A DNA stretch of 64,000 nt from positions 1 through 64,000 of the forward strand of contig NZ_NMWV01000011.1 of assembly GCF_002860405.1 (NCBI RefSeq), written 5' to 3'. Under the pieces are notes generated by a model. That model did not search any database, was not told the DNA's origin, and saw only the letters and a list, made by a program, of their open reading frames with translations. A program made the position numbers and the translations under genes. The stretch is from Bifidobacterium imperatoris. Its GTDB lineage: Bacteria; Actinomycetota; Actinomycetes; Actinomycetales; Bifidobacteriaceae. Each line of letters starts with the position of its first letter. Within the stretch, counting starts at the first letter, position 1. Shown here one piece after another: positions 2,805 to 57,537 of this stretch.

Positions 2805-4151
2805 TTATTCCGCATGCGCCCAATCGCTGTAGTGGCGCCTCAGATATGACCTGAGCCCATTAATCGCCCACAATGGCAGATTCGCCACCCATGACTCATC
2901 ACGGTATCCGGCAAGGCTTGCACGGATTGCATGCACAAGCTCAAAATGGTCATACGCATATTTAAGACTCTTGGCATGCAGATTCTGTTCTGCCTTCACC
3001 TCGATTGGGTAAATCACGCCGTTGTTGCTGATGGAAAAATCTATTTCCGCGCGCCCATTTGGATTCGCCCAGTACGTGGGCTCAAACGCGTCTGCCACAA
3101 GCTGCTGGCATACATACTGCTCGGTCAGAGCACCTTTGAATTCGGTGAATATCTGGTTCTGCTGCGTGATTACAGACGGTTCAAGATTGGCCAATGCGCC
3201 TAGAAGGCCGATATCGGATGCAAACATTTTGAAGGTGGAGGTGTCGGTATAGCTCGTTAATGGTTCGCGCAGCGCAGAGGCGCAATATACCTGATGGATA
3301 ACACCGTAATCACGCAGCCACATGATGCTTTCTTCAAAATCACGAGCGCGCGCACCCGGGCGTACCACGCCATAGACGAATTTGCGGTTTTCTTTGGATA
3401 ACTGTGCAGGTAATGTGTGCCAGACCATGCGGATGCGGTCAACCAGTCTTGCCGGAGCGTGCTTGGAGAAGTCGAGATCGTATGCGTCGAGGATTTCTCG
3501 TTGGATATTGCGTACTTCGGCTGCGTTCGACCCATTAAGATGGGCAGCTACTGCTGCCGGCATGCCACCAACGAACAGGTATTGCTTAAGCATATTGTGC
3601 AATCGGTCGTTGAACAATGAGTTGATTTGCTCAATCTCGCCATTGCGAATCAGGTTTGCAAGTTGTGGTTGCCCGGCATTTTCCAAGTATTCGAGGAACG
3701 TGAGTGGGTGAAGTGTCAGCATGTTGACTTTGCCTACAGGGAAAGAAGCATCGGGATGTTTCGATACACCCATGTACGATCCAGTAGCAATCACATGCTG
3801 TTCCGGTGCTTCTTCGCAGAAGTATTTCAGCGCGGTCAGTGCGCGCGGGCATTCCTGGATTTCGTCAAAGAAAATAAGCGTCTTCCCAGGGGTGATGTTC
3901 ACGCCGGTATAGAGCGAAAGATTGCTCAGAATGGTATTGGGGTTTAGATTGCCTTCGAATAAGCTTCGCACTTCGATATCGCGCATAAAGTCGATGCGCA
4001 GCACATTGCTGTATGCTTGGCGACCGAATTCGGAAACGATCCAAGTCTTGCCGGTCTGCCGGGCTCCACGCAGGAGCAGAGGTTTGCGGTTGGGCTGCTG
4101 TTGCCATGTTTCTAAGTCGCTCATCAATGTACGTTGCAATTTCTCGACCAT
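2805..4151 (-). CDS. AAA-type ATPase with C-terminal nuclease-like domain (DUF4143 / archaeal ATPase type)
   Basis: The 448-residue protein has a Walker A motif GARQTGKT (residues 29-36), a Walker B LIFFDEIQE near residue 90, and a sensor-like ATGSYMG. The C-terminal domain reads AEIDFSISNNGVIYPIEVKAEQN, matching the restriction-endonuclease-like fold (D, E-x-K) of DUF4143 proteins. These are widespread accessory ATPases of unclear role. I chose the ATG at 4151 because GAGGT lies 8 bases upstream. The longer GTG start at 4193 lies inside the upstream repeat array and has no ribosome-binding site. It is probably part of an accessory islet between host genes. Confidence 0.85.
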   Translation of the reverse strand: MVEKLQRTLMSDLETWQQQPNRKPLLLRGARQTGKTWIVSEFGRQAYSNVLRIDFMRDIEVRSLFEGNLNPNTILSNLSLYTGVNITPGKTLIFFDEIQECPRALTALKYFCEEAPEQHVIATGSYMGVSKHPDASFPVGKVNMLTLHPLTFLEYLENAGQPQLANLIRNGEIEQINSLFNDRLHNMLKQYLFVGGMPAAVAAHLNGSNAAEVRNIQREILDAYDLDFSKHAPARLVDRIRMVWHTLPAQLSKENRKFVYGVVRPGARARDFEESIMWLRDYGVIHQVYCASALREPLTSYTDTSTFKMFASDIGLLGALANLEPSVITQQNQIFTEFKGALTEQYVCQQLVADAFEPTYWANPNGRAEIDFSISNNGVIYPIEVKAEQNLHAKSLKYAYDHFELVHAIRASLAGYRDESWVANLPLWAINGLRSYLRRHYSDWAHAE

Positions 4152-17315: not shown

Positions 17316-17359
17316 TGGTAGCGGGGCATGGATTTGAACCATGGACCTCTGGGTTATGA
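17316..17359 (-). other. attL with displaced 3' half of tRNA-fMet
   Basis: On the minus strand this reads as the T-arm and acceptor 3' strand of an initiator tRNA, ending CCCCGCTA followed by an encoded CCA. The left flank of the 16-bp core (17344-17359) is host DNA. It is the original 3' half of the tRNA gene, displaced by phage insertion. Its T-stem (CATGG/CCATG) differs from that in the rebuilt gene at attR. Confidence 0.85.
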
Positions 17360-17376
17360 TCCCAAACGACCCAAAA

Positions 17377-33455: not shown

Positions 33456-33881
33456 ATGGACGACCTCAAGCCCGAACTCATCGCCGCCGACCCCTACAAA
33501 AGCCGCAAATGGGACGAACTGACCACCGGCGCGGACATCGACCCCGCAGCCGTGCCCACGCTCACCCTCCTCGTCAACTGGTACGCGATCCTCGACCAAT
33601 GCATGCGCGACATCAGCGCCGACGACGGCACCCACGTCGCCTACGTCAACGATCAGGGCGACGTCAAGGCCATGCCCCAGATCGCCACCATGAAACAGGC
33701 CAGCGCCGAAATCAGGGCGCTCAACAAACAACTGTTCGCCGACGGCGGCGACACCGCCCTCATCCGCCGCGAAACCAAGGCCGCGCAGCGCGACAACCCG
33801 CTCGAACGCGCCCGACGCGCCCGCGAACTGAGACTGGAGGTCAGAAATGGCGGCAAGGCTCAAAGGAAGGCAGCAACCTAG
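33456..33881 (+). CDS. Terminase small subunit
   Basis: The 141-residue protein is of the P27-like type: helical N-terminal half (VPTLTLLVNWYAILDQCMRDIS, MPQIATMKQASAEIRALNKQLF) and a basic C-terminus. GGGAGGCGG precedes the ATG at 33456. Its 3' end overlaps the large subunit by 35 bp. It recognises the packaging start site and hands DNA to the large subunit. No clear HTH pair can be picked out by eye. Confidence 0.8.
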   Translation: MDDLKPELIAADPYKSRKWDELTTGADIDPAAVPTLTLLVNWYAILDQCMRDISADDGTHVAYVNDQGDVKAMPQIATMKQASAEIRALNKQLFADGGDTALIRRETKAAQRDNPLERARRARELRLEVRNGGKAQRKAAT

Positions 33882-35298
33882 CTACCAGCTCACACCCCGC
33901 CACGCGGACAGCTACGGGCCCGACGCGGCCGCATTGGCCGAGGGGTACGGCATGCCGCCCGACCCGTGGCAGCGAACCATCCTCGACGGCTGGATGGGCA
34001 CCCTCAAAGACGGCCGCTGGGCCGCCGGCGACTGCGGCGTCAGCGTGCCGCGCCAGAACGGCAAGAACGGCGTCATCGAATTCCTCGAACTGTACGACAC
34101 CGCCATACTCGGCCTGAAAATCCTGCACACCGCCCACGAGGTCAAGACCTGCCGCAAGCACTTCCTCAGGATGAAGAACTACTTCGAGAACGCCCGCCAA
34201 TACCCCGAGCTAGCCGAGGCGGTGGACTACATCAGGAACACGAACGGACAGGAAGCCATCGTCCTGACCAACGGCGGCAGCATCGAATTCATCGCCCGCT
34301 CCAAAAGCTCGGGCCGAGGCTTCACCGTGGACATCCTCGTATGCGACGAGGCGCAGGAACTCACCGACGAACAGATGGAGGCCATACAGCCCGCCACCTC
34401 GTCCGCACCCAGCGGCAACCCCCAGACCATCTACGCCGGAACCCCGACCCCGCCAAGCTCGCCCGGCACCGTGTTCGAACGCATCCGCCGCACCGCCCGC
34501 ACCGTGAAGCCGAAACGCACATGCTGGTACGAATGGGGCGTCGAAGAGATCGGCGACATCCACGACCGCACCCGCTGGGCGCAGGCCAACCCCAGCCTCG
34601 GCATCCGACTCGTCGAAACCGTCATCGAAAGCGAAGTCTCCAAATTCACCCCCGAAGGCTTCGCCCGCGAACGCCTCGGATGGTGGGACGAATCCCAATC
34701 CAACGCCACCGAGATCAACCCCGACGACTGGGCCGCATGCAAGACCGACCACCCATGTCAGGAAGGCCGCAACAGCTTCGCCGTCAAATTCAGCCCCGAC
34801 GGAGCCACCGCAAGCCTCGTCGCCTGCGTCCGCCCGCCCAAGGGCAGCGACCTCAAACCGCACATCGAACTCATCGACGTGCGCAGCATGCGCAACGGCG
34901 TCATGTGGCTCGCCGACTTCCTCGAACAACGATGGCGCAAAACCGTCGGCATCGTCATCGACGGCCGCGTCGGAGCCCCCACCCTCGTCCAGATGCTCAA
35001 GGACCAAGGCGTCTCCAGCCGCGTCATCGTCACCCCGACCAGCCGCCAAGTCGCCGACGCCGTAAGCATGTTCGAACAGGCCATCAACGACCACAGGCTC
35101 ACCCACTTCGACCAACCCGGCCTCAACGACGCCGCAGCCCACGCCAAACACCGCAAGATCGGCGACGGCTACGGCTACGAGCCCGGCGACCAAAACACCG
35201 ACGTCATGCCCCTCGAAGCCGCAGCGCTCGCCTACTGGAACCAGAAGACCAGCCGCCGCGACCCCGACCGCAAGCAAAGGATGGTACGACTCGCATGA
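33847..35298 (+). CDS. Terminase large subunit
   Basis: The 483-residue packaging motor and nuclease. The ATPase domain has a deviant Walker A VPRQNGKN (residues 67-74) and a Walker B ILVCDEAQE near 165. The C-terminal nuclease domain carries Asp residues in AVKFSPDGA and VIDGRVGAP, and the segment DVMPLEAAALAYW near the end. The size fits terminases of siphoviruses. It overlaps both the small subunit and the portal gene. Confidence 0.93.
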   Translation: MAARLKGRQQPSYQLTPRHADSYGPDAAALAEGYGMPPDPWQRTILDGWMGTLKDGRWAAGDCGVSVPRQNGKNGVIEFLELYDTAILGLKILHTAHEVKTCRKHFLRMKNYFENARQYPELAEAVDYIRNTNGQEAIVLTNGGSIEFIARSKSSGRGFTVDILVCDEAQELTDEQMEAIQPATSSAPSGNPQTIYAGTPTPPSSPGTVFERIRRTARTVKPKRTCWYEWGVEEIGDIHDRTRWAQANPSLGIRLVETVIESEVSKFTPEGFARERLGWWDESQSNATEINPDDWAACKTDHPCQEGRNSFAVKFSPDGATASLVACVRPPKGSDLKPHIELIDVRSMRNGVMWLADFLEQRWRKTVGIVIDGRVGAPTLVQMLKDQGVSSRVIVTPTSRQVADAVSMFEQAINDHRLTHFDQPGLNDAAAHAKHRKIGDGYGYEPGDQNTDVMPLEAAALAYWNQKTSRRDPDRKQRMVRLA

Positions 35299-36848
35299 AC
35301 GGACTCACACCGGTCACGGACTTCTCCCGCGGACCGCAATGGTTCACGCCGCCAAGCGGCGTGGAGGGCCTCGACCCCGAGACCGAACGGCTCATGTTTC
35401 CCCTGTTCGCCGTATGGAACCGCAAACGCGCCCGCAACATGCTGCGCAGCGCCTACGCGGACGGCAAGCACCGGCTCGACCACATCGGCTTCTCCATTCC
35501 GCCAGCCATGCGCCACATCGAGGAGGTCGTGGGATGGCCCGCCAAGGCCGTTGCGGCCCACGCCGAACGCTGCATGTTCGACGGCTTCGTCAGTCCCAGC
35601 GCGAACGACGACCCCTTCGACCTCGACGCCGTGTTGTCCGCGAACCAGTTCGGCCTCGAACTGCCCCAGGCGATCCGCAGCAGCATGACCCACTCGGTCG
35701 CGTTCATGACGGTCTCGCCAGGAGACCCGAACGCCGGCGAACCGCCGGTGATCGTCATGCCCTACTCGGCGCAATGGTCGGCCGGCCTGTGGAACTTCCG
35801 CACCCGCAGCCTCAAGGCCGGCCTCGTCGTCAAGGACGTGGACGACTACGCCATGCCGACGATGTACAGCATCTACACGCCGAAGGAAGTGACCACGCTC
35901 AAGCTCGCCGGCAAATGGGTCGTGGACAACGTATGGAGTCACAACCTCGGCCGCGTGCCGATGGAGGCGCTGCCGTACCGCCCCGACATCGACCGTCCAT
36001 TCGGCCGCAGCATCATCAGCCGACCCGTCATGAGCATCACCGACGACGCCGTGCGCACCGTCATGCGCACCGAAGTCAGCGCCGAATTCTACAGCGCACC
36101 GCAACTGCTGCTGCTCGGAGCCGACAAAGACAGCTTCCTCGACGACAAAGGCAACCCGATACCCGTATGGGAATTCATCATCGGCCGCATCAACGCCATC
36201 AGCCGCGACGACAACGGCGACGTGCCCACCGTCCAGCAGATCAGCCAACAAAGCGTCCAGCCCCACGTCGAACAGATGCGCGAACTCGCCAGCCGCTTCG
36301 CCGGCGAAACCAACGTACCCGTCTCCAGCCTCGGCGTCGTCACCGACAACCCATCCAGTGCCGAAGCCATGCACGCAGCCGAAAAAGACCTCGTCATCGA
36401 CTGCGCCGCAGCCAACCGCGTCTACGGAGCCGCCCTGCGCCGAATCGCACAGGACATCATCATGATCCGCGACCGCACCGCCGACATCACCGACGAAATG
36501 GCCGGCATCACCGCCAGATGGCGCTCGCCGGCGCTGCCCAGCGTGATCGACAGCGGCGACGCGATCGTCAAGCTCATCGGCGCGTTCCCGTGGCTCGCCG
36601 ACACCAGCGTCGCCCTGGAGGAGGCCGGCTTCACCGACGAGCAGATCACCCGACTGCTCGCCGAGAAGCGCCGCAACCAAGCCACCGCCACCGCCACGCA
36701 GATGCTCGCCGCCCTCACCTCGCAACAGACGCAGAAGGAACCCGAGAATGGTCAGCAGGACACAACTCAACCAGCTCAACCTGACGCAGCAGCAGGCGGT
36801 CAGGCTGGCGATAGCGGAGATGCGCAAACTGTGGACGACTCTCAATGA
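35295..36848 (+). CDS. Portal protein, SPP1 gp6-like
   Basis: The 517-residue protein shows the portal core: LMFPLFAVWNRKRARNMLRSAYADGKH, the central IIGRINAISRDDNGDVPTVQQ region, and ETNVPVSSLGVVTDNPSSAEAM. The C-terminus is Gln/Ala/Asp-rich. It forms the ring through which DNA enters the head. It overlaps the large terminase start by four bases and its 3' end overlaps the next gene by 101 bp. Confidence 0.92.
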   Translation: MNGLTPVTDFSRGPQWFTPPSGVEGLDPETERLMFPLFAVWNRKRARNMLRSAYADGKHRLDHIGFSIPPAMRHIEEVVGWPAKAVAAHAERCMFDGFVSPSANDDPFDLDAVLSANQFGLELPQAIRSSMTHSVAFMTVSPGDPNAGEPPVIVMPYSAQWSAGLWNFRTRSLKAGLVVKDVDDYAMPTMYSIYTPKEVTTLKLAGKWVVDNVWSHNLGRVPMEALPYRPDIDRPFGRSIISRPVMSITDDAVRTVMRTEVSAEFYSAPQLLLLGADKDSFLDDKGNPIPVWEFIIGRINAISRDDNGDVPTVQQISQQSVQPHVEQMRELASRFAGETNVPVSSLGVVTDNPSSAEAMHAAEKDLVIDCAAANRVYGAALRRIAQDIIMIRDRTADITDEMAGITARWRSPALPSVIDSGDAIVKLIGAFPWLADTSVALEEAGFTDEQITRLLAEKRRNQATATATQMLAALTSQQTQKEPENGQQDTTQPAQPDAAAGGQAGDSGDAQTVDDSQ

Positions 36849-37482
36849 GCTCACGCCCGAATGGCAGCACGACCTGCTGCTCGACGCGATCCCGCAACTC
36901 GCCGCCAGATACGGCGACATCGCCGGAGCCGCAGCAGCCGAATGGTACGAAGCCACCCGCCTCGAAAACACCGGAGCCGCGTTCGACGCCCTCACCTACG
37001 GCAGCTTCAGCCCCGACGCCATCAAAGGCAGCATCGACGCCAAGGCCTACCCCATGATCCTCAGCGGCAACCCCCAGCAGGCGTTCGACTTCCTCACGGG
37101 CGCGATGCAACGCTGGATCAGATACGTCGGCCGCCAGACCATCGCACGCAACTGCCAGCACGACCCCTTCAAACCCAGATGGGCCAGAGTCCCCAGCGGC
37201 GCGAAGACCTGCGCATGGTGCGAAATGCTCTGCTCGCGCGGCTTCGTCTACTACTCCAAGGAAACCGCCGGAGCGCTCGCCCACTGGCACGACGAATGCG
37301 ACTGCTCGATCGTGCCCGAATGGGAGAAGGACGACACCCACATCGCCGGCTACGACCCAGACCTCTACTACTCGCGGTACAAGGCCGCGTGGGACGCGGC
37401 CGGCGGCTACGGGGCCACCGACGCGCAGGTGACGCACTGGATGCGCGTGCTCAATCCGGGGGCCTACACCGACAACGCATAG
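36748..37482 (+). CDS. MuF-like minor head protein
   Basis: The 244-residue protein shows the Cys/His-rich motif ARVPSGAKTCAWCEMLCSRGFVYYSKETAGALAHWHDECDCSIVPEW common to MuF-type minor head proteins. A helical front (ALRLAIAEMRKLW-like) precedes it. The C-terminal tail ends SRYKAAWDAAGGYGATDAQ. It is translated in another frame across the end of the portal gene, an unusually long overlap of 101 bp. Such proteins are ejected or attached near the portal. Confidence 0.87.
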   Translation: MVSRTQLNQLNLTQQQAVRLAIAEMRKLWTTLNELTPEWQHDLLLDAIPQLAARYGDIAGAAAAEWYEATRLENTGAAFDALTYGSFSPDAIKGSIDAKAYPMILSGNPQQAFDFLTGAMQRWIRYVGRQTIARNCQHDPFKPRWARVPSGAKTCAWCEMLCSRGFVYYSKETAGALAHWHDECDCSIVPEWEKDDTHIAGYDPDLYYSRYKAAWDAAGGYGATDAQVTHWMRVLNPGAYTDNA

Positions 37483-37579
37483 ATTTACCGCGACCGGAAC
37501 CGGATCGCGGCGGCACTCGCACCGCATTGCGTGGACACCAAACAACCGACGGCCGGACAGCCGGCAAGGAGAAACGACC

Positions 37580-38191
37580 ATGTTCCGAAAGTCATGGATG
37601 AAGCACATCCGCACGATCGTCGCCGAAGGCGAGACCGGCGGAGACTCCGAGAACACCGCCGAACAGGCGGGAGAAGCCCCCAAGGACGAGCCGCAGCGCA
37701 CGTTCACCCAAGACGAGGTGAACGAACTCGTGGAACGCCGTCTGGCGAGGGAACGGGCCAAGCAGGGCGACATCGCCGAGCTGCGCCGCAAGGCCAAGCT
37801 CTACGACGAAGCCGAAGAGGCCAACAAGACCGAGACGCAGAAGCTCACCGAGCAGAACCAGAAGCAGGCCGCACGCATCGCGCAGCTCGAACACGGCAAG
37901 CTCGTGTCCGACGCATGCATGGCGCACGGTATCCCCGCCGAATACGCCGACCTCGTGACCGGCGCGGACGAAGAGGCCGTCAACGCATCCGCCGAGAAGG
38001 TCGCCAAGCTCATCGGCGGCGCGGCCAAGCCGCAGGTCGAACCCCCGGCCGTCACCGTGCCGAGCGAAGGCATGCGACCGGCATCCACCGGCAGCAAGAC
38101 CATCTACGAGCTCATCGCCGCCGCCGAGAAGAACGGCGACACCGCCAAGGCCATCGCGCTCAAGAGCACGCTGCTCGCGGACAAGAACTAA
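37580..38191 (+). CDS. Capsid scaffolding protein
   Basis: The 203-residue protein is largely helical and charged, with a long coiled-coil segment (QDEVNELVERRLARERAKQGDIAELRRKAKLYDEAEEANKTETQKLTEQNQKQAARIAQLE). A flexible middle and a helical end that can contact the capsid protein follow (IYELIAAAEKNGDTAKAIALKSTLL). Position between MuF and the capsid gene is as expected. AAGGAGAAACG lies upstream of the ATG. Confidence 0.87.
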   Translation: MFRKSWMKHIRTIVAEGETGGDSENTAEQAGEAPKDEPQRTFTQDEVNELVERRLARERAKQGDIAELRRKAKLYDEAEEANKTETQKLTEQNQKQAARIAQLEHGKLVSDACMAHGIPAEYADLVTGADEEAVNASAEKVAKLIGGAAKPQVEPPAVTVPSEGMRPASTGSKTIYELIAAAEKNGDTAKAIALKSTLLADKN

Positions 38192-38215
38192 CCAACCGAT
38201 CCGAAAGGAACCATC

Positions 38216-39295
38216 ATGCCCGGAATCACCGGTCAGGGAACCACCTACAACCTCCCCAACTACGTCGGCGAACTGTTCGCCGTCAGCCGCGAGGATACCC
38301 CGCTGCTGTCCGCCATCGGCGGACTGACCGGCGGCCGATCCACCACCGCCACCCTGTTCGAATGGCAGGGCTACGACCTGCGAGACCCCGACGCCAACCG
38401 CCAGCGTCTCGAAGGCGCGGCCGCGCCCGACGGCGAGGCCCGCGTGCGCTTCCACGCCAACAACGTGGTCGAAATCCATCAGGAAAGCGTGGAGATCAGC
38501 TACACGAAGCAGGGGGCCACCGGCAACCGATCCACGGACGGCATGCCGACCGTCAGCGTGGGCGGCACCGTCATCCCGGCCGACGAGCTCGGCTGGCAGA
38601 TCACCCAGCAGCTCAAGCAGATCAGCCGCGACGTCGAAGCCTCGTTCATCTCCGGCACCTACCAGAACCCGACCGACAACACCAAGCCCCGCAAGACCCG
38701 AGGCCTGCTGGAGGCCATCGCCACCAACGTGGCGACCACCACGCACACCGCCGCGCAGCTCACCGCCGACGACGTGCTCGACCTCGCGCAGCTCGCGTGG
38801 GACAACGGCGGCATCCGCGAGACCGAAACCCGCACCATCGTGGTCAACTCCACCCTCAAGCGAGCCCTGACCCGCGCGTTCGTCACCGACCGCAACTATC
38901 AGGAAGAGACCCGCAACGTGGGCGGCGTCAACCTCCAGACCATCGAGACCGACTTCGGCCGGTTCAACATCATGCTCGACCCCTACGTGCCCAAGGACAA
39001 GCTGCTCGTCCTCAGCCTCGAAGAGCTCGCGCCCCGCTTCCTCGAAATCCCCGGCAAGGGCCACTTCTTCGCCGAACCGCTCGCCAAGACCGGCGCGGCC
39101 GACAAGGTGCAGCTCTACGGAGAGATCGGCCTCGAATACGGCAACGAGAAGGCCCACGCCGTCCTCACCGTGGGCGTGACCGCATCCGAGAAGACCGCCG
39201 CCGAACCGGCCGCCCAGTCCGACGAGCCGGCCCCGGCCGCCCAGTCCGACGAGCCGGCCCCGGCCGCCGCGAAGCGTTCCGCCAAGAAGGCCTGA
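38216..39295 (+). CDS. Major capsid protein, SU10/DUF5309 HK97-fold type
   Basis: The 359-residue protein begins with a family start (GQGTTYNLPNYVGELFAVSREDTPLLSAIGGL). It continues with ATLFEWQGYDLRDPDANRQRLEGA and YVPKDKLLVLSLEELAPRFL. It has no protease-cleaved delta domain, fitting a separate scaffold gene. The last 60 residues hold two identical 9-residue repeats (AAQSDEPAP; 27-bp DNA repeats at 39209-39262) and a basic end, an unusual low-complexity tail that may be surface exposed. Confidence 0.9.
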   Translation: MPGITGQGTTYNLPNYVGELFAVSREDTPLLSAIGGLTGGRSTTATLFEWQGYDLRDPDANRQRLEGAAAPDGEARVRFHANNVVEIHQESVEISYTKQGATGNRSTDGMPTVSVGGTVIPADELGWQITQQLKQISRDVEASFISGTYQNPTDNTKPRKTRGLLEAIATNVATTTHTAAQLTADDVLDLAQLAWDNGGIRETETRTIVVNSTLKRALTRAFVTDRNYQEETRNVGGVNLQTIETDFGRFNIMLDPYVPKDKLLVLSLEELAPRFLEIPGKGHFFAEPLAKTGAADKVQLYGEIGLEYGNEKAHAVLTVGVTASEKTAAEPAAQSDEPAPAAQSDEPAPAAAKRSAKKA

Positions 39296-39296
39296 C

Positions 39297-39704
39297 ATGG
39301 CCGACAGCGACGCAACGGAAGAGCAGCCGTTCGCCACCGTCGCCGACCTTGAGAAACGCTGGTACGGGCGCACGTTCACCGGCACCGACAAGGAGGACCA
39401 CGTCAAGGTCCTCCTTGAGGACGCCAGCGACCTGATCCGCCAATACCCCGGACACAAGAGGTGCACCACGGCCACGCTGCGCCGCATATGCTGCGCCGTG
39501 GCCCGCCGCACCCTCGAAAACGAGGAAAGCGACCTCAACAGCAACGTCACCAACATGAGCGAGACCGTCGGCCCCGTGTCGCAGAGCTACACGTTCGGCA
39601 ACAGCGGAGCCGACATGCGCCTATGGCCCAGCGAGGAAAAGGAACTCGGCGTGGGACGCCAGCAGGCATGGAGCTACGACCCGTTCGAGGGGGCCAAGCC
39701 ATGA
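39297..39704 (+). CDS. Head-tail connector (gp15-like adaptor)
   Basis: The 135-residue protein reads FATVADLEKRWYGRTFTGTDKEDHVKVLLEDASDLIRQYPG, the helical start of phage connector proteins. VARRTLENEESDLNSNVTNMSETVGPVSQSYTFGNSG follows. The TGAC-ATG junction follows directly after the capsid gene. It joins the portal to the tail. Confidence 0.85.
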   Translation: MADSDATEEQPFATVADLEKRWYGRTFTGTDKEDHVKVLLEDASDLIRQYPGHKRCTTATLRRICCAVARRTLENEESDLNSNVTNMSETVGPVSQSYTFGNSGADMRLWPSEEKELGVGRQQAWSYDPFEGAKP

Positions 39705-40054
39705 AACGCATCCAAGGCGTAGACATCCGACTCGCCCGCCGCGAACCCTATCGGCTGCCCGACGAGATGAACGAACAGACGCTCATAGACCTGCCGCCCG
39801 AGACCATCGCCAACGCGATCGTCACCGACGGCACGCAGGCCAACGCCGGCGAAGCCGAACGCCCGCAAGGCACGGACACGGCCATCACCGTGTACCTGCC
39901 ACGCTCATGGCCATGGCGAAGCCTCAGGGGGGCCCGCCTCACCATCGACGGCACCGATTACTGGGTGCACGGCGACCCGCACCCGGTACGAACCAACCTC
40001 ACCCCGACCGGATACTGGCCCGTCGGGGTGCAGGCCAGCACGAGGAAGGCGTGA
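39701..40054 (+). CDS. Head closure / head-tail joining protein
   Basis: The 117-residue protein includes TAITVYLPRSWPWRSLRGARLTIDGTDYWVHGDPHPVRTNLTPTGYWPVGVQ, a pattern of head-closure proteins that seal the connector. It overlaps the connector gene by four bases. Confidence 0.75.
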   Translation: MKRIQGVDIRLARREPYRLPDEMNEQTLIDLPPETIANAIVTDGTQANAGEAERPQGTDTAITVYLPRSWPWRSLRGARLTIDGTDYWVHGDPHPVRTNLTPTGYWPVGVQASTRKA

Positions 40055-40056
40055 AC

Positions 40057-40314
40057 ATGGCACGAACCCGCGTCAAACTCGACCTCAAGGGCTTCCGCGC
40101 CTACCGGCGAGACCCGACCGTCAAGGCCGTCCTCGACGAACAGGCGCGGGCATGGGCCGCAAGGGCGAACGGGGCAAGACGCCGCCGCAAGGCCGAATAC
40201 GAGGCGGTGCCCGCCGCCGACAGCGAACACGGCAGCGTCGCGCTCGTCCACACCGGCAACATCGAAGCCCGCTTCGACAACGCCGAAAACAACACCCTCC
40301 TCCACACCATGTAG
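40057..40314 (+). CDS. Small basic structural protein (gp10-like)
   Basis: The 85-residue protein is basic at the N-terminus (FRAYRRDPTVKAVLDEQARAWAARANGARRRR). SEHGSVALVHTGNIEARFDNAENNTLLHTM follows, matching the short HK97 gp10-like minor proteins at this position. Three bases separate it from the previous gene's stop. Confidence 0.7.
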   Translation: MARTRVKLDLKGFRAYRRDPTVKAVLDEQARAWAARANGARRRRKAEYEAVPAADSEHGSVALVHTGNIEARFDNAENNTLLHTM

Positions 40315-40324
40315 GAGCCGCCGC

Positions 40325-40678
40325 ATGTCCAGCATCGCATCCACCGCCATCCAATGGATCAACCAACACCTGCCGGACGGATACACGGCACACGGCAGCA
40401 CGCCAGACCCGCGCCCCGAACGATACATCACCGTGCAGCGATCCGGCGGCGTCAGGACCCGCTACAGGGACGACGCCATGCTCATCGTCCAAGTCAACGC
40501 CCCCACCCGCTCGCAGGCCGCAGACACGGCCGAACAAGTCGCCGACCTGCTGCTCGACATGTGGCGGCTCCCCGAAATCGCCGACGTCGAGATACACAGC
40601 ATCGCCGACGTCAGCCTCAACGGGCCGCCGGTCGAACACCGCTACCAGATCACGGCGGAAATCACCACAACCACCTAA
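40325..40678 (+). CDS. Tail terminator / tail completion protein
   Basis: The 117-residue protein (ASTAIQWINQHLPDGYTAHGSTPDPRPERYITVQRSGGVRTRYRDDAMLIVQVNAPTRSQAADTAEQVADLL) fits the minor-tail/tail-completion family (DUF3168-like). AGGAGCCGC lies upstream. It caps the tail tube before head joining. Confidence 0.8.
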   Translation: MSSIASTAIQWINQHLPDGYTAHGSTPDPRPERYITVQRSGGVRTRYRDDAMLIVQVNAPTRSQAADTAEQVADLLLDMWRLPEIADVEIHSIADVSLNGPPVEHRYQITAEITTTT

Positions 40679-40687
40679 GGAACCAAC

Positions 40688-41308
40688 ATGGCAACCAAGA
40701 ACAACAAGAAGAACGTAAGCCTCGGCAAGCCGATGGTCGCCGGCGTCGCCTACCGCGCCCCCGCCGGAACCGCACTGCCCGCCGACGCCACCACCGCGCT
40801 CGCGGCGGCATACGAATGCGTCGGCTTCCTCGGCGAGGACGGCATCACCAACGCCACCGACACCGACAACACCACCATCAACGACATGGGCGGCGTGCAG
40901 GTCATCAACGAGATCAGCAGCTACGCCGAGACCTACCAGTTCATCATGATCGAGACCCGCGCCGAAAGCCTCAAGGCCCGCTACGGCGACGGCAACGTCA
41001 CCGCCGCCGGAACCGGCGACGCGACCACCCTCACCGTCCTGCACGCCATGCCCGACGGCGAATCCTGCGTCTGGGTCTTCGAAATCCTCATGACCGGCAA
41101 CCGCGTCAAGCGCATCATCATCCCCGACGCCACCATCAGCGAGGTCGGCGACATCACCTACTCCAGCACCGAGGTCATCGGCTACGACGTCACCTACAGC
41201 GCCAACCCGTCCGACCTCATCGACGGTGCCACCAGCAAGGAGATCATCGCCCCGCTGTCCAAGGCCGCCACCAAGGCGCTCAAGCAGGCGCTCCACGCCG
41301 CAGCCTGA
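40688..41308 (+). CDS. Major tail tube protein
   Basis: The 206-residue protein has a beta-rich tube pattern, including GKPMVAGVAYRAPAGTALPADATTALAAAYECVGFLGEDGITNATDTDNTTINDMGG and a second half with SEVGDITYSSTEVIGYDVTYSAN. It lies directly before the tail chaperone. A terminator follows, allowing high expression of the head-to-tube block. Confidence 0.88.
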   Translation: MATKNNKKNVSLGKPMVAGVAYRAPAGTALPADATTALAAAYECVGFLGEDGITNATDTDNTTINDMGGVQVINEISSYAETYQFIMIETRAESLKARYGDGNVTAAGTGDATTLTVLHAMPDGESCVWVFEILMTGNRVKRIIIPDATISEVGDITYSSTEVIGYDVTYSANPSDLIDGATSKEIIAPLSKAATKALKQALHAAA

Positions 41309-41330
41309 CCCGCGCACCGATAAACAGCCA

Positions 41331-41364
41331 AGCCGACCGGAACCACATCCGGCCGGCTTTTTTC
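41331..41364 (+). terminator. Terminator after the tail tube gene
   Basis: The arms AGCCGACCGG and CCGGCCGGCT (one mismatch) flank an 8-nt loop and are followed by TTTTTTC. Confidence 0.88.
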
Positions 41365-41386
41365 GACTTCCGTGAAAGGACAACCA

Positions 41387-41698
41387 ATGACAACCAAGCC
41401 GCAGGATCACAAGCAGCCCAAGGACAAGCCCCGCAGGATCGAGGTCATGGGCGCGACCCTGACCATCGACCCGTCCATCCTCGACGACCTCGATATGGTC
41501 GAATACCTCTACGACCTCCAGCACGCCGCCGACAGCGACGACGGGGGCTTCGCTATCGTGCCGTTCCTGCGCAAGCTGTGCGGCGACGACTACACGAACG
41601 TGAAGAAGGCGCTGCGCGACGACAACGGGCGCATCCCCTTCGAGAAGGTCGGCGAATTCGTCCAGCAGCTCATCGAAGCGCTCAACCCAAACTCCTGA
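41387..41698 (+). CDS. Tail assembly chaperone, upstream (G-type) product
   Basis: The 103-residue product (PRRIEVMGATLTIDPSILDDLDMVEYLYDLQHAADSDDGGFAIVPFLRKLCGDDYTNVKKALRD) is translated when no frameshift occurs. It coats or guides the tape measure protein with its longer form. The slip site CCCAAAC lies at 41686-41692, just before the stop at 41696-41698. AAAGGA precedes the ATG at 41387. Confidence 0.87.
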   Translation: MTTKPQDHKQPKDKPRRIEVMGATLTIDPSILDDLDMVEYLYDLQHAADSDDGGFAIVPFLRKLCGDDYTNVKKALRDDNGRIPFEKVGEFVQQLIEALNPNS

Positions 41699-42066
41699 CG
41701 CTCGTGGAAATGATGGAGGCCGCGCCCGACGCCCTGCGGGCCGACCTCCAACGCTTCTACGGGCTCGACATGGACGAGATCGGCCACACGGTGAGGGTGC
41801 GCCGCGCCGCCGACCTCGCCGCCAACCTCCCCGAAGACGCGCTCACATGGGGACGCATCGATGAACGCGCCACATGGGGCACTGCCAAGCACCTGCTCGC
41901 CACCATCGCCGACAACACCGGCTTCCTCGCGTGGACGAAGACCAAGGCCGCCAAGCAAGGCGAATGGCGCGGCGCGATCGAACGCCCCGGCTTCCCCAGA
42001 ACCGCCAACGTCCAGAAGCTCGACCCCGACAACATGCTGCGCATCCTGCGCATGCCACGAACCTGA
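41387..42066 (+). CDS. Tail assembly chaperone, frameshifted (GT-type) product
   Basis: A -1 slip on CCCAAAC (41686-41692) would join the upstream product to a second open frame, about 125 residues, reading LLTLVEMMEAAPDALRADLQRFYGLDMDEIGHTVRVRRAADL and on to 42066. That frame has no good start of its own. The slip heptamer is in the exact X-XXY-YYZ register, and the downstream sequence continues without a stop. This is the standard lambda G/GT arrangement. Confidence 0.85.
41686..41692 (+). promoter_or_regulatory. -1 ribosomal frameshift site
   Basis: The heptamer CCCAAAC has zero-frame codons CCA and AAC. The zero frame stops two codons later. GC-rich DNA just downstream could form a stimulating stem, but I could not fold it. 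Confidence 0.85.
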
Positions 42067-50983: not shown

Positions 50984-52564
50984 ATGGCGAACACGCAGAA
51001 GGTCATGACCTTGGAGGACACCGCCAAGCTCATCGCCAAAGTCCACGCCAACGCCACAGGCGGCGCGAAGTTCGAATACGACAATGCCAAGGGCGAATAC
51101 GGGAACGTCGCCGCCTACATGGCCGCCCACACGGACGGCAGGGTGTACGGCGTGAAATTCCCCAAATACACGTACAGCAACACGCCAACCGGCGTGAAGA
51201 CCCGAGACAACGCCAACCTGGCCATCGAGATCAGCACCAACGACAAGGCCGGCCGCGACGACTACGCGCCCCTGAACGCCTTCCGCGTGTGGGACGTGAA
51301 CGCCACCGTGGACGACGACGGCGTGCCCCACGTCACCGCCATCGACGGCATCGACACCCGCTTCAAACGCGACGGCAGCAACGGCGACGTGTACGTCATG
51401 ACATGCCCCGGATACTACAAGCTCGACAGCACGAGCACCCACAACGAATTCCTCTACAGCGACACCCAATACGACGGCTACACACCATTGCCCGGCGTGC
51501 TGCTGCCCGACGGCAGCAAACGACCATGCCTGTTGTTCGCGAAATACGCCGCCTCCCTCGACTCCCAGCAACGCCCCCTGTCCGTCAGCGGCAAGGAGAT
51601 CGACCGCGAATTCGGATCCCAGAACCGAGCCATCGACTACGCGCTCAAAAAAGGCAAGGGCTACGCCGGCCGATGCGCCGGCGACAACTTCTACATCCAG
51701 CTCATGCTCATGCTCAAATACGCCACCAAAAACTCGGACGTGCTCGGCGGCTGCTGGCAGTACACGCCTCAGACCGCCGTCACCAAGGCCGAAACCGGCG
51801 TCAAGCGCGTCATCATCGCCACCAGCAGCGCCGGCAACTTCGACATCGGCAGCACCATCAACATCGGCACCGACAAGGAACGCAACAACACCGGCAACTA
51901 CAGCGCCGCCCGCGCCCGCACCATCCTGAGCAAGACCAACCTCGACGCCAACAACACCGCCCTCAACCTCGACGGCGACGCCATCACCACGACCACCGCA
52001 TGCTTCGTCAGCAGCATGCCGTGGAAGACCGGGGCCACCGACAAGCTGCTCGGCACCGACGGCCGCCCATCCGCCGCGTTCGCCGCCAACCACCAACCCA
52101 TCCGCCTACAGGGCATCGAACTATTCAACGGCATCTACGAGACCGACGCCGACCTCATCGTCAACGCCGTCAAGGAAAGCGACGACAAGGGCCGACTCGA
52201 CATCTACCGCGTGTTCGACATCACCAAGGCCAGCAAGACATCGACGGCGAACTACACCAAGATCGGCGAATTCCCGGCCCGCACCAAAGCCATCGACAAC
52301 TCGTGGAAACAAGCCGAGGACTTCACGCTGTCCAACGGTGTGCTCATCCCCACCGGCATCGCGGCCACCAGCACCACCGGCCTGTGCGATGGCGTATACG
52401 CCAACCCGCTCACATCCCAAGGCCTCCGACAGGTGCGGCGCTTCGGCGGCCTCTGGGGCGGGGCTGCCTGCGGCGCTTTCGCCGTGTACCTCTCGGACGG
52501 CCTCGCGGGTCGCCGGTGGGGCGTCGGGGGCCGCCTTTCTGCGCTCGGTCGCACGAAGGCGTAG
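50984..52564 (+). CDS. DGR target: receptor-binding protein with C-type-lectin-like variable end
   Basis: The 526-residue protein has a beta-rich central part including MTLEDTAKLIAKVHANA, DYALKKGKGYAGRCAGDNFYIQLMLMLKYATKNSDVLGG and a linker. It ends with the variable C-type lectin fold: GGLWGGAACGAFAVYLSDGL and the AGRRWGVGG end. The last 36 codons (52432-52539) form the variable repeat written from the downstream template repeat. It is likely the phage's receptor-binding tip. GAAGGAGCC lies upstream. Confidence 0.92.
   Translation: MANTQKVMTLEDTAKLIAKVHANATGGAKFEYDNAKGEYGNVAAYMAAHTDGRVYGVKFPKYTYSNTPTGVKTRDNANLAIEISTNDKAGRDDYAPLNAFRVWDVNATVDDDGVPHVTAIDGIDTRFKRDGSNGDVYVMTCPGYYKLDSTSTHNEFLYSDTQYDGYTPLPGVLLPDGSKRPCLLFAKYAASLDSQQRPLSVSGKEIDREFGSQNRAIDYALKKGKGYAGRCAGDNFYIQLMLMLKYATKNSDVLGGCWQYTPQTAVTKAETGVKRVIIATSSAGNFDIGSTINIGTDKERNNTGNYSAARARTILSKTNLDANNTALNLDGDAITTTTACFVSSMPWKTGATDKLLGTDGRPSAAFAANHQPIRLQGIELFNGIYETDADLIVNAVKESDDKGRLDIYRVFDITKASKTSTANYTKIGEFPARTKAIDNSWKQAEDFTLSNGVLIPTGIAATSTTGLCDGVYANPLTSQGLRQVRRFGGLWGGAACGAFAVYLSDGLAGRRWGVGGRLSALGRTKA
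52432..52539 (+). repeat. DGR variable repeat (VR)
   Basis: This 108-bp segment at the 3' end of the target gene aligns without gaps to the template repeat 241 bp downstream. It differs at 18 positions, all of them A in the template, and at no other position. It covers the C-terminal lectin-like codons. Homology ends just after a GC-only stretch at about 52524-52535. Confidence 0.96.
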
Positions 52565-52592
52565 CCGCAGTGCGATGGGGGTGAAGCGCAGC

Positions 52593-52612
52593 GAGGGGGC
52601 GAAAGCCCCCTC
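52593..52612 (+). promoter_or_regulatory. IMH-type hairpin after VR
   Basis: A perfect 8-bp stem GAGGGGGC/GCCCCCTC has a GAAA tetraloop, 28 bp past the target stop. It matches the hairpin placed after VR that supports mutagenic homing in studied DGRs. Confidence 0.8.
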
Positions 52613-52672
52613 CTACGTTTCGCAAGCAATCTTTGGGATTTGTGGCGGTACGCCTCCGACGTTCGTGCGCTT

Positions 52673-52780
52673 GGTGCAGCGCTTCGGCAACCTCAGGAAC
52701 GGGGCTGCCTGCGGCGCTTTCGCCGTGAACCTCACGAACGACCTCGCGAATCGCAGGTGGAACATCGGGGGCCGCATATC
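52673..52780 (+). repeat. DGR template repeat (TR)
   Basis: The 108-bp non-coding template contains 20 adenines. Eighteen are changed in the VR and two are unchanged, with no change at the other 88 bases. Adenines cluster as AAC pairs that give Asn codons. It lies between the target gene and the reverse transcriptase on the same strand. Confidence 0.96.
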
Positions 52781-52945
52781 CGGTCAATCCTGTCAACAAA
52801 CACGATCATTACGCCACAACTACCCTCCACGCCAGCCAGTGAGAGGGCATGCCACGGCCCAGCCGAAAATCCAACCGAGCACCCGGCCGGTACCCGAACC
52901 CCTCCAGCAACGGGGAACGCCGGCATAGTCCAGATAGGAAACGCT

Positions 52946-54220
52946 CTGAAAACCCACTGCAAGAACACCCATTGCGCCACCCCCGCGTTCGTCCGCGCCG
53001 CGATCAGCCACTACCTCAAAGGCAAACAATCCCGGCGCGACGTCACCCGCTTCCTCGCCGCCAATCCAGACCTCGACCTGCTCGCCATGCGGATCGCCGA
53101 CGAAATCCGCGAAGGCCGCTTCCGAGACACGAGGATCACGTACTTCAACCGCATCGAACCGATCAGCAACAAGCACCGCGTCATCGGCCGGGAATCGGTC
53201 AGACACCAAATCTACGACCATGTGGCCGTCATGGCGCTCCAGCCGCTCTTCGACGCGAAGGTGGGACGATGGCAGACCGCCAGCATCCCCAATCGCGGCA
53301 CCATCGACGCGCGCAGGGCAATCAAACGCTGGACACGCGAACGAAGCTCGAAATGGTTCGTGAAGCTGGACGTGCGCAAATACTATCCGAGCATCGACCG
53401 GCCGACCCTCAAGAGACTGCTCGCCAGAGACGTCGGCGACCCGATCCTGCTGCGCCTCGTGTACCACCTCATCGACCGATACCAAGGCGACAACGGCCTC
53501 AACCTCGGCAGCTACCTAAGCCAATGGCTCGCCAACTACTACCTCAGCCATGCCTACCACTGGATCGAATCGCCGGCCATGACCATCGAACGCACCAGCC
53601 GGCGCACCGGCGAGATCACCACCCGCAGGCTCATCACGCACCAACTGTGGTACATGGACGACCTGCTGCTCATCGGCACCTCCAAACGAGACCTCAAGAT
53701 CGCCGCCCGCCGCATCGTCCATTACCTGCGAGACCGGCTCAGACTCGACGTGCACGAGGAATGGAACTGCAAACGCCTCGACCTCGAACCCATCGACATG
53801 GTGGGCTACACGTTCCGGCCCCACGGCCGCGTCAACATCCGCAGCGGCGTATTCCTCCGCGCCCGCCGAACGTTCAACAAAGCCCGACGTCGGCCAATGA
53901 GCGTGTTCCTCGCGCGACGCTGCTGCTCCTACTACGGATACCTGCGCAACAGCGACAGCATCCGATACCGGCGACGCCACCGCATCGACCACACCATGCG
54001 CCGCGCCACCCGGCACCTATCCACCCAATACAGGAAGGCAAACCAATGCTCCAGACAGTATCCAGCCCCGAACCCCTCGAAGAGGTCAGCTACTACCCGC
54101 GCGGCGACGGCCTCGCGGACATCCGCATCCGCCGCAACCTCGCCACCGTCCTGCACGAGGACGGCGATACCGCATGGACGGAATACACCGCCGACGAAGC
54201 CTATACCGTGCGCGACCTGA
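52946..54220 (+). CDS. DGR reverse transcriptase
   Basis: The product is about 424 residues. It copies the TR RNA with adenine-specific errors. Core motifs are KLDVRKYYPSIDRPTLK (motif 3-like), NLGSYLSQWLANYYLSHAYHWIE (DGR-type motif 4), and the catalytic YMDD in LWYMDDLLLIGTSKRDLK. RIDHTMRRATRHLSTQY ends the conserved part. There is no in-frame ATG, GTG or TTG between TR and the core. The start at CTG 52946 with AGGAA 5 bases upstream is tentative. The last 55 residues run through the next gene in another frame, suggesting a lost stop. Confidence 0.9.
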   Translation: MKTHCKNTHCATPAFVRAAISHYLKGKQSRRDVTRFLAANPDLDLLAMRIADEIREGRFRDTRITYFNRIEPISNKHRVIGRESVRHQIYDHVAVMALQPLFDAKVGRWQTASIPNRGTIDARRAIKRWTRERSSKWFVKLDVRKYYPSIDRPTLKRLLARDVGDPILLRLVYHLIDRYQGDNGLNLGSYLSQWLANYYLSHAYHWIESPAMTIERTSRRTGEITTRRLITHQLWYMDDLLLIGTSKRDLKIAARRIVHYLRDRLRLDVHEEWNCKRLDLEPIDMVGYTFRPHGRVNIRSGVFLRARRTFNKARRRPMSVFLARRCCSYYGYLRNSDSIRYRRRHRIDHTMRRATRHLSTQYRKANQCSRQYPAPNPSKRSATTRAATASRTSASAATSPPSCTRTAIPHGRNTPPTKPIPCAT

Positions 54221-54381
54221 CCGAGCAGGAAGCCATCGAACAAGCCGATTCGATATGGCTGGACTGCCTGCAAGCCTCCAAGACCGACAGCGAACGACTC
54301 AGCGAACTGGAGGCGTCCAGCCTCGATCAGGACGAGGCATTGGCCGAAATCTACCAGCTCCTCGCAGGAGGTGAAGCATGA
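54046..54381 (+). CDS. Acidic tail-region protein
   Basis: The 111-residue protein (EPLEEVSYYPRGDGLADIRIRRNLATVLHEDGDTAWTEYTADEAYTVRDLTEQEAIEQADSIWLDCLQ) begins at an ATG behind AGGAAGG and overlaps the reverse transcriptase frame by 175 bp. It resembles conserved phage proteins that follow tail fibres. It is not an Avd helical bundle. The stop overlaps the next start. Confidence 0.75.
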   Translation: MLQTVSSPEPLEEVSYYPRGDGLADIRIRRNLATVLHEDGDTAWTEYTADEAYTVRDLTEQEAIEQADSIWLDCLQASKTDSERLSELEASSLDQDEALAEIYQLLAGGEA

Positions 54382-56543: not shown

Positions 56544-57368
56544 CTAGGCGGCGAGGCGCGTGGCGGCGACCGCCGCCCTCAATCGATCGTCCGGCATGGC
56601 GATGTACCGTTGCGTGGTCTCGACCGAGGCATGGCCTAGGAGCTTGGAGACGAGCAGCAGGTCTCGCGTGGCGGCGTAGGTCGTGGTCGCGTACCTGTGG
56701 CGCAGGCTGTGCGCAGTCCATCCGTCGCCGAGCAGCGTCGAGAGGTGCCGGCCGATGTAGCTCGACTCGACGTGTCCCGACCATCGGCCGGGGAAGCAGT
56801 AGCCGTGGGCGGATCGGATCAGCAGGGCGAGGTCGTCGCCGATCGGCACGATGCGCTGCTTGTCGCCCTTGCCTACGACGACGAGGCTCCAGCCCACGAG
56901 GTCGCGCATCACGTCGCGGCTGTGAACCTTCGCTATCTCGAAGCGCCTCAACCCGCATTCGGCACCGAGGCGCAGCATGAGCCGCTCCCCGTCTGTGGCC
57001 TTGCGCAATGCGGCGAGTATGACCATGTCCGGGCACGGCCGTGGGTGAGGTTCGGGGCGCTTGACTGTCGGCAGGAACTCGCTCGGATCGCACTCGGATC
57101 GGCCGGACACCTTGAGCCATCGGAAATAGCTGACGCAGGCGTTCTTAGCGCCCTTGCGCGTCTCCGGCTTCCAGTCCTTCGCGGCGAAGTGCGCGAGCAG
57201 GTCGTCGCCCTCCACGTCCCTCGGATCGCCCTCAAGCGCCCTCGACAATGCGGACATCTGGCATCGGCGAGTGCCGATCGTGTTGGGGGAGTAGCCCGCC
57301 GCCTTGAGGGAGTCGAGCCATGAATTGATTGATTCTGCCCAGAGCGGGCTTGGATATTGTTTTTTCAC
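56544..57368 (-). CDS. int: Tyrosine-family integrase
   Basis: The 274-residue protein catalyses site-specific recombination at the tRNA-fMet core. Catalytic signatures are visible: the first Arg in AECGLRRFEIAKV, then VVVGKGDKQRIVPI, HSLRHRYATTTY with the second Arg, LGHASVETTQRYI with the His and the nucleophile Tyr. The N-terminal SAM-like region (NSWLDSLKAAGYSPNTIGTRRCQMSALSRAL) binds the core. It lies next to attR and points away from it. No excisionase was found. Confidence 0.93.
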   Translation of the reverse strand: MKKQYPSPLWAESINSWLDSLKAAGYSPNTIGTRRCQMSALSRALEGDPRDVEGDDLLAHFAAKDWKPETRKGAKNACVSYFRWLKVSGRSECDPSEFLPTVKRPEPHPRPCPDMVILAALRKATDGERLMLRLGAECGLRRFEIAKVHSRDVMRDLVGWSLVVVGKGDKQRIVPIGDDLALLIRSAHGYCFPGRWSGHVESSYIGRHLSTLLGDGWTAHSLRHRYATTTYAATRDLLLVSKLLGHASVETTQRYIAMPDDRLRAAVAATRLAA

Positions 57369-57453: not shown

Positions 57454-57463
57454 CCGCCCGCAG

Positions 57464-57537
57464 TAGCGGGGACAGGATTTGAACCTGTGACCTCTGGGTT
57501 ATGAGCCCAGCGAGCTACCGAGCTGCTCCACCCCGCG
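57464..57537 (-). tRNA. Initiator tRNA-fMet (CAT), rebuilt by phage DNA
   Basis: The 74-nt gene without CCA has three G-C pairs at the anticodon stem bottom (GGG/CCC), a CTCATAA loop and a mismatched first acceptor pair (C1 against U72), both hallmarks of initiator tRNA. The 5' half up to the core is host DNA. The T-arm (ACAGG/CCTGT) and 3' acceptor come from the phage. The DNA after A73 reads CTG, not CCA. Confidence 0.9.
57489..57504. other. attR core
   Basis: The 16-bp core GACCTCTGGGTTATGA matches attL exactly. Flanking bases differ, which sets the crossover within this core. Confidence 0.85.

Follow-up and report, generated by a model that had tools for sequence, protein, structure and literature searches.

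A diversity-generating retroelement in a Bifidobacterium imperatoris prophage with a putative CUG-initiated reverse transcriptase

Introduction

Among described systems, the diversity-generating retroelement (DGR) of BPP-1 (NC_005357), which comprises mtd, avd, a template repeat (TR) and brt, offers the closest comparison for the element that we analyze here. This element lies in a stretch of 64,000 nucleotides from Bifidobacterium imperatoris (assembly GCF_002860405.1, contig NZ_NMWV01000011.1, positions 1 to 64,000, forward strand), in the following referred to as the window, for which an earlier note made from the sequence alone had claimed an intact DGR in a tail-tip gene. Like the BPP-1 DGR, it consists of a target gene with a variable repeat (VR), a hairpin (8-bp stem, GRNA loop), a TR, a structured spacer RNA and a reverse transcriptase (RT); it also shares the adenine-specific change, and its RT matches the solved BPP-1 RT in profile comparisons. 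By contrast, no avd gene is found between VR and TR and none was detected elsewhere, the spacer RNA is Rfam RT-19 instead of Phage_DGR, the hairpin is 53 bp away from the VR, and the RT, which appears to start at a CTG codon, runs into the next gene.

A report from 2021 describes RT genes adjacent to tail genes in prophages of B. breve and B. longum as likely DGRs, undescribed until then in Bifidobacterium (PMC8705816). Since likely DGR RTs are thus already on record for bifidobacteria, a DGR in a bifidobacterial prophage is not new in kind. These RTs share genus and gene neighbourhood with the one described here; VR, TR, spacer RNA and start codon do not appear in the portion of that report that we covered. 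DGRs with likely receptor-binding gene targets are also described for prophages of another gut actinobacterium, Eggerthella lenta (PMC8778435, in part); this host belongs to another bacterial class, and the likeness is one of description. Neither a CUG start nor an overlap between RT and next gene is mentioned for DGR RTs in those portions of the literature that our search covered.

In the following, we describe the locus and its relatives. The best overall explanation, to which we assign a probability of roughly 85%, is a functional-looking DGR in a Bifidobacterium prophage, in which the RT would be translated from CUG, the RNA would be BPP-1-like and the changed protein would bind the host.

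Results

Adenine-specific differences between VR and TR

The VR and the TR (Table 1) align without gaps over 108 bases and differ at 18 of them, all of which are TR adenines (12 A>G, 4 A>T and 2 A>C; hypergeometric P = 1.4e-18 for all 18 landing on A). The two repeats were bounded by the first non-adenine mismatch on each side, and the absence of such changes is therefore a statement about this stretch. Only two of the 20 template adenines, at positions 57 and 66, are unaltered in the VR, and the alignment given in the earlier note, with 18 differences at template adenines and none elsewhere, was thereby reproduced in full.

The same holds for the near relatives of the element, that is, for five IMG/VR loci (L002-L006) with 89-91% identical RTs, each with its own VR and TR. 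They show 14, 11, 14, 12 and 17 mismatches between own VR and own TR, respectively, and none of these is at a non-adenine position within the 108 bp. Pooled with the window, 86 of 123 adenine sites are mismatched, compared to 0 of 525 other sites. This distribution rules out a plain duplication, and with a DGR-type RT and an RT-19 RNA adjoining the repeats, we consider the probability that they arose by ordinary duplication or by chance to be practically negligible, even though the region is GC-rich and contains numerous short repeats.

For a wider view, we analyzed 32 hand-listed loci, including the window's record and L002-L006, with a script that searches for the longest run without non-adenine change and then extends it in a tolerant manner. 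In 24 of these loci, it recovered a pair of 100 nt or more without any non-adenine change, to which the extension added nothing. Non-adenine changes were found in L031 (2), L137 (5), L138 (1) and L040 (1), a pair of just 66 nt was recovered in L037, and no usable pair of a VR with its own TR was obtained in L015, L017 and L044. The comparison across related prophages that the earlier note had proposed thus yields adenine-only change in the five near relatives and most of the wider ones, and the two results that it had named beforehand as speaking against a DGR, non-adenine changes in the VR and an RT without YMDD, are both absent from the window's clade. A second target gene was also considered and rejected: when both strands of the window were scanned in full for the 88 non-adenine positions of the TR, the TR and the VR alone matched throughout (88/88), and the next best stretch reached 48.

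A fixed 3' end of the VR and a downstream hairpin

At the 3' end of the VR, position 104 (52535) is C in all six copies, where the TR has A, and position 106 (52537) is T in five copies and G in one (L003). Both fall into one leucine codon, as its first and third base, and all 16 aligned targets encode Arg-Leu-Ser across this codon. Given this agreement between copies and the invariance of the codon, position 104 is a fixed VR/TR difference, and position 106 probably belongs to the same fixed 3' site, with the G in L003 leaving some doubt. We presume that position 104 is comparable to the initiation-of-mutagenic-homing (IMH) site of BPP-1. When fixed sites are excluded, the altered fraction of mutable adenines in the window is 16/18 or 17/19; over the six loci and without positions 104 and 106, there are 74 changes at 111 sites (33 to G, 30 to T and 11 to C). 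The heavy past mutagenesis that the earlier note had read from the VR consequently needs a small correction: 16 or 17 changes are likely due to mutagenesis, while one or two of the 18 are fixed differences.

The hairpin with a GAAA loop, which the same note had placed after the VR, is real and has an 8-bp stem, but it is located 53 bp 3' of the VR end, past the stop codon of the target gene (52562-52564). The locus thus combines a fixed 3' initiation site with a downstream hairpin, although at a distance outside the published range (see Discussion). Similar hairpins are found in L029, L030 and L032, with different loops in L029 and L030.

Recent activity and possible exchange among related loci

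The TRs of L005 and L006 are identical, as are the sequences between VR and TR (0/131 differences), and the RT side shows 7 mismatches in 1300 bp, yet their VRs differ at 12 positions, all of them TR adenines. These adenine-only differences between near-identical flanks indicate that the DGR worked recently in close kin of the window's element. Upstream, their target genes show 49 differences over 1440 sites, from which it follows that recombination has also acted. The one other record found for the window's own phage, L001, has the same VR and TR as the window. To call the element intact and active-looking, as had been done, is therefore backed by recent adenine-only change in close kin and is tempered by the lack of a detected Avd, the CTG start of the RT and the unchanged repeats in L001.

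Two further pairs of loci suggest exchanges of another kind. The contigs of L043 and L044 are identical over 1000 bp before the VR, between VR and TR, and over 1374 bp after the TR; the TR of L044 (3687-3796 in both) differs from that of L043 at 13 positions, all at adenines of the L043 TR, and retains a TR-type 3' end. Either the template was overwritten by a mutated copy or these metagenome contigs include an assembly chimera. L133 and L137 are two DGR copies on one 83.7-kb contig (IMGVR_UViG_2877182016_000001), with identical target flanks and RT sides that differ at 45 of 1226 sites. The VR of L137 has one non-adenine difference from the TR of L133, compared to five from its own, which indicates that the VR was shared between the co-resident copies, through recombination or in-trans templating.

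The RT and its putative start codon

The frame after the TR encodes a DGR-type RT with a YMDD motif, in agreement with the earlier note, such that a DGR-group RT with a catalytic YxDD adjoins the repeats. It also carries a GSYLSQ motif, the SQ of which we take to be a mark of DGR RTs. A defence RT was rejected on the basis of profile scores, with E-values of 2.4e-19 for the generic RT model of PADLOC and 9e-12 or weaker for the UG/DRT models, versus 3e-67 for PHROG 1423.

There is no fitting ATG, GTG or TTG near the N-terminus of this RT in the window: between 52640 and 53110, standard starts in its frame are confined to TTG 52640, GTG 52757 (within the TR) and ATG 53087. We therefore compared 34 hand-chosen loci, one per contig or copy, in which the N-terminus could be aligned. 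The codon matching the RT start is ATG in 18 of them, CTG in six, TTG in five, GTG in four and ATC in one. The CTG loci are the window's record and five others (6/6 of the window's clade), and no further records emerged when the collection was scanned with any base allowed at the first position of the start codon. In the RT tree, they form one clade (support 100/99), while the ATC locus stands beside an ATG group (99/99); a single origin of the CTG start in the window's clade is the reading that this tree supports. In the ATC locus, L138, the codon (4001-4003) follows AAAAGGACGAAAA, with a stop seven codons upstream and no standard start within the 79 codons after it. The ATA codons at 52925 and 52934 of the window were rejected as starts, as ATAGTCCAGATAG is also found in L030 and L031, is followed there by an out-of-frame ATG and thus resembles RNA sequence. 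From these comparisons, we infer that the RT initiates at CUG, which seldom serves as a start codon in bacteria.

An RT that starts at one of the three standard codons in the window, upstream or inside, with the CTG as a plain leucine codon of an otherwise real DGR, is unlikely. Such starts are indeed used in the database annotations of near homologues. They are, however, not shared: an ATG at codon 13 is present in 3/6 CTG loci, a GTG at codon 32 in 5/6 and an ATG at codon 47 in 2/6, and no standard start common to all six is found before codon 92. The frame of L004-L006 is closed by a stop 19 codons upstream of the CTG, and the first standard start after this stop is at codon 13 or 32. Moreover, an upstream start would entail translation of the structured spacer RNA, in which indels shift the frame, and numerous distant homologues begin at exactly the codon equivalent to the CTG. 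Among the 120 listed of 192 database homologues, this inferred start is used by 52 of the 85 with less than 80% identity (5 begin upstream and 28 inside), but by none of the 35 with at least 80% identity (7 upstream, 28 inside); other starts are expected in annotations of the latter if gene finders pass over CUG.

It could also be that the RT has lost its start codon and that the element is a decaying relic, considering that CTG and ATC are weak initiators and that a related phage with a deleted RT is known (L120, see below). We regard this as very unlikely, because the CTG clade comprises six members with open RT frames and an excess of variation at third positions, because the recent adenine-only VR change in L005/L006 adjoins a CTG-start RT, and because near homologues populate large protein clusters (P0005, with 2088 member sequences).

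Concerning the leaders, Shine-Dalgarno (SD) pairing is weaker before ATG starts (mean -2.4 kcal/mol) than before the others (-8.5 kcal/mol; 10 vs 9 distinct leaders, Mann-Whitney P 0.005, kinship uncorrected). As kinship is uncorrected and weak starts need an SD anyway, we base no conclusion on this difference. In several database RTs (P0006, P0010, P0014, P0015, P0016, P0018 and P0025), the frame is apparently shifted into the next gene near the C-terminus, at differing points; these shifts appear to be sequencing errors or decay.

RT-19 as a candidate spacer RNA

The RNA between TR and RT scores above the Rfam gathering cut-off for RT-19 (RF03073). RT-19 was likewise found in 10 of 15 further loci (missed in L139, L140, L008, L037 and L043) and in four of eight additional ones, not counting BPP-1 (missed in L016, L015, L017 and L007), and all matches in relatives are placed between the TR and the RT start. 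In BPP-1, the same search identified RF03022, a phage DGR RNA, at 2750-2882, between the TR (2887-3020) and brt (start 2742). Given this equivalent position, RT-19 appears to be the spacer RNA of the present DGR group and, by analogy with what the consulted part of PMC12875486 describes for BPP-1, might bind the RT or prime cDNA synthesis. The search output for the RF03073 entry gives no function, whereas the copy in the window sits between a DGR TR and its RT; the portions of the literature that our search covered make no mention of a link to DGRs.

The target gene

The target gene carries the VR at its 3' end, in what is predicted to be a C-type-lectin-like variable domain. The best match of its structural model (mean predicted local distance difference test score, pLDDT, 79.3) by both Foldseek and VIA-align is TaqVP of Thermus aquaticus (PDB 5vf4), with 16% sequence identity and with the first 100 residues outside the match. 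Its earlier designation as a tail-tip gene finds its support in the neighbouring genes and the PHROG 'tail' match, which make it a putative tail-tip gene.

RT overlap, next gene and prophage context

The RT and the next gene share 172 sense bases (57 codons) in each of the six CTG loci. In 14 other records, the RT frame ends between 14 bases before the start of that gene and 59 bases within it. Within the overlap of the CTG loci, variation at third positions of the next gene is limited to 7 of 58, compared to 24 of 52 downstream of the overlap (Fisher P 1e-4), and first and second positions show no comparable drop (P 0.27). In neither of two control groups with ATG starts is the difference significant (36/58 vs 39/52, P 0.16; 4/58 vs 5/52, P 0.73). 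The reduced silent variation suggests translation in both frames, with local conversion as another possible explanation.

The next gene adjoins the RT in 21 of the 22 IMG/VR loci that were retrieved with it as a query, and has named homologues in B. pseudocatenulatum; its product has no Pfam match and no Foldseek match at E <= 0.001. In L120 (3175-5333), target and next gene are retained, while the RT is cut to a remnant of ~58 residues, i.e. the DGR is deleted. As the next gene is kept there beside this remnant alone, and as its product is acidic and without Pfam or Foldseek matches, we rejected it as an Avd substitute and consider it a probable tail-module gene, for which an accessory role is still conceivable. 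A search for Avd with PF05635 yielded no match anywhere, including BPP-1, and is thus uninformative.

The integrase gene lies beside a tRNA-Met. Sixteen identical bases (17344-17359 and 57489-57504) are common to this tRNA and a tRNA-like stretch of 47 bp (17318-17364; 85% to tRNA-Met), and may be the attachment sites that bound a prophage of ~40 kb. A search for close relatives among 50,697 deposited phage records gave no DNA match; 64 records match the RT protein, all with <60% identity, and phage BigBern1 of B. asteroides matches 55% of positions 33847-41800 at 69%. Named RT homologues among those listed come from Bifidobacterium sp. UTBIF-68, B. adolescentis and B. oedipodis. Together with the named homologues of the next gene and the BigBern1 match, they point to Bifidobacterium as the host genus.

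Table 1. Features of the DGR locus and its surroundings in the window
Feature	Position	Strand	Basis
Target gene, 526 amino acids, VR at 3' end	50984..52564	+	phrog_17147 1.3e-91; phrog_5302 (tail) 1.5e-20; predicted fold TaqVP-like
VR, 108 bp	52432..52539	+	pairwise alignment with TR
VR 3' end carrying VR-type bases (IMH candidate)	52527..52539	+	position 104 differs from TR identically in 6/6 copies
Hairpin/cruciform, 8-bp GC-rich stem, GAAA loop	52593..52612	+	pattern as published (PMC3240598)
TR, 108 bp, 20 A	52673..52780	+	pairwise alignment with VR
RT-19 RNA (Rfam RF03073), putative spacer RNA between TR and RT	52819..52925	+	98.4 bits, gathering 78.3, E 4.1e-20
AGGA, putative SD core	52936..52939	+	-4.2 kcal/mol with anti-SD
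CTG, inferred RT start codon	52946..52948	+	comparison of relatives
DGR RT, 424 codons from CTG to stop, last 172 sense bases overlapping next gene	52946..54220	+	profile matches
GSYLSQ motif of RT	53507..53524	+	sequence motif
YMDD catalytic motif	53651..53662	+	sequence motif
Acidic protein of 111 amino acids, next to RT in nearly all loci found, probably tail-module gene	54046..54381	+	isoelectric point 4.1
Phage integrase beside tRNA-Met (57463-57537)	56544..57368	-	profile matches

Discussion

The locus in the window has the anatomy of a DGR, with adenine-only change across its relatives, a fixed 3' site, a hairpin and a spacer RNA. In the mechanism that we propose, an RNA with TR and RT-19 spacer would be reverse-transcribed with errors at adenines, the template RNA working as in BPP-1, and the resulting cDNA would replace the VR at the 3' end of the tail gene, the predicted product of which is similar to a DGR variable protein already known. 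The RT would be translated from a CUG 20 nt past the spacer RNA, and this start would limit the amount of enzyme and keep most ribosomes away from the template RNA. The altered protein could then bind the host and thereby retarget the phage.

Several observations weigh against this interpretation. In E. coli, CUG is started inefficiently by both wild-type and variant initiator tRNA, according to the part of PMC11497404 that we consulted; since it is such a poor initiator there, low RT output is a reasonable expectation. The GTG at 52757 and the TTG at 52640 are in frame with the CTG without an intervening stop, and some of the 28 database proteins with an internal start may be fragments. The 38 bases around the start (52919-52956) are identical in the window and its five near relatives, but identical runs of 22-43 bases also occur in the hairpin, TR and RT-19 stretches, so that the start region is not special, and the leader, folded as a single sequence, does not exceed its shuffles in stability (z -0.33). 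The hairpins of other phage DGRs, with GC-rich stems of 7-10 bp and GRNA loops, are located 4-34 bp from the VR (PMC3240598, in part), a range that is exceeded here. The last 46 residues of the target model, which hold the VR, have a block pLDDT of just 42-79. Finally, a profile search for bAvd (PF22296) found none in 11 distinct records, with a BPP-1 control at 2.2e-37, although a divergent Avd could escape it.

A more far-reaching idea, which is tentative and in our view rather doubtful, would join these features: in a group of actinobacterial phage DGRs with an RT-19 scaffold and without bAvd, the RT might be kept scarce via weak starts (CUG for the window's clade and, as a separate case, AUC for a sister phage), and the RT of the window's clade might have gained a basic tail of 57 residues that is read within the next gene and may take over some of the role of Avd.

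The near homologues of this RT make up large database clusters, with P0008 (743 member sequences) in addition to P0005, and annotations that depart from the inferred start, as in all 35 listed homologues with at least 80% identity, affect RT surveys, phylogenies and the cloning of these enzymes. If measured, initiation at CUG, and separately at AUC, would be a natural and conserved case in bacterial hosts. Likewise, a tie between RT-19 and DGR template RNAs makes the function of this Rfam RNA testable. Phages of bifidobacteria, which are important commensals of the gut, may alter receptor-binding proteins by means of such DGRs.
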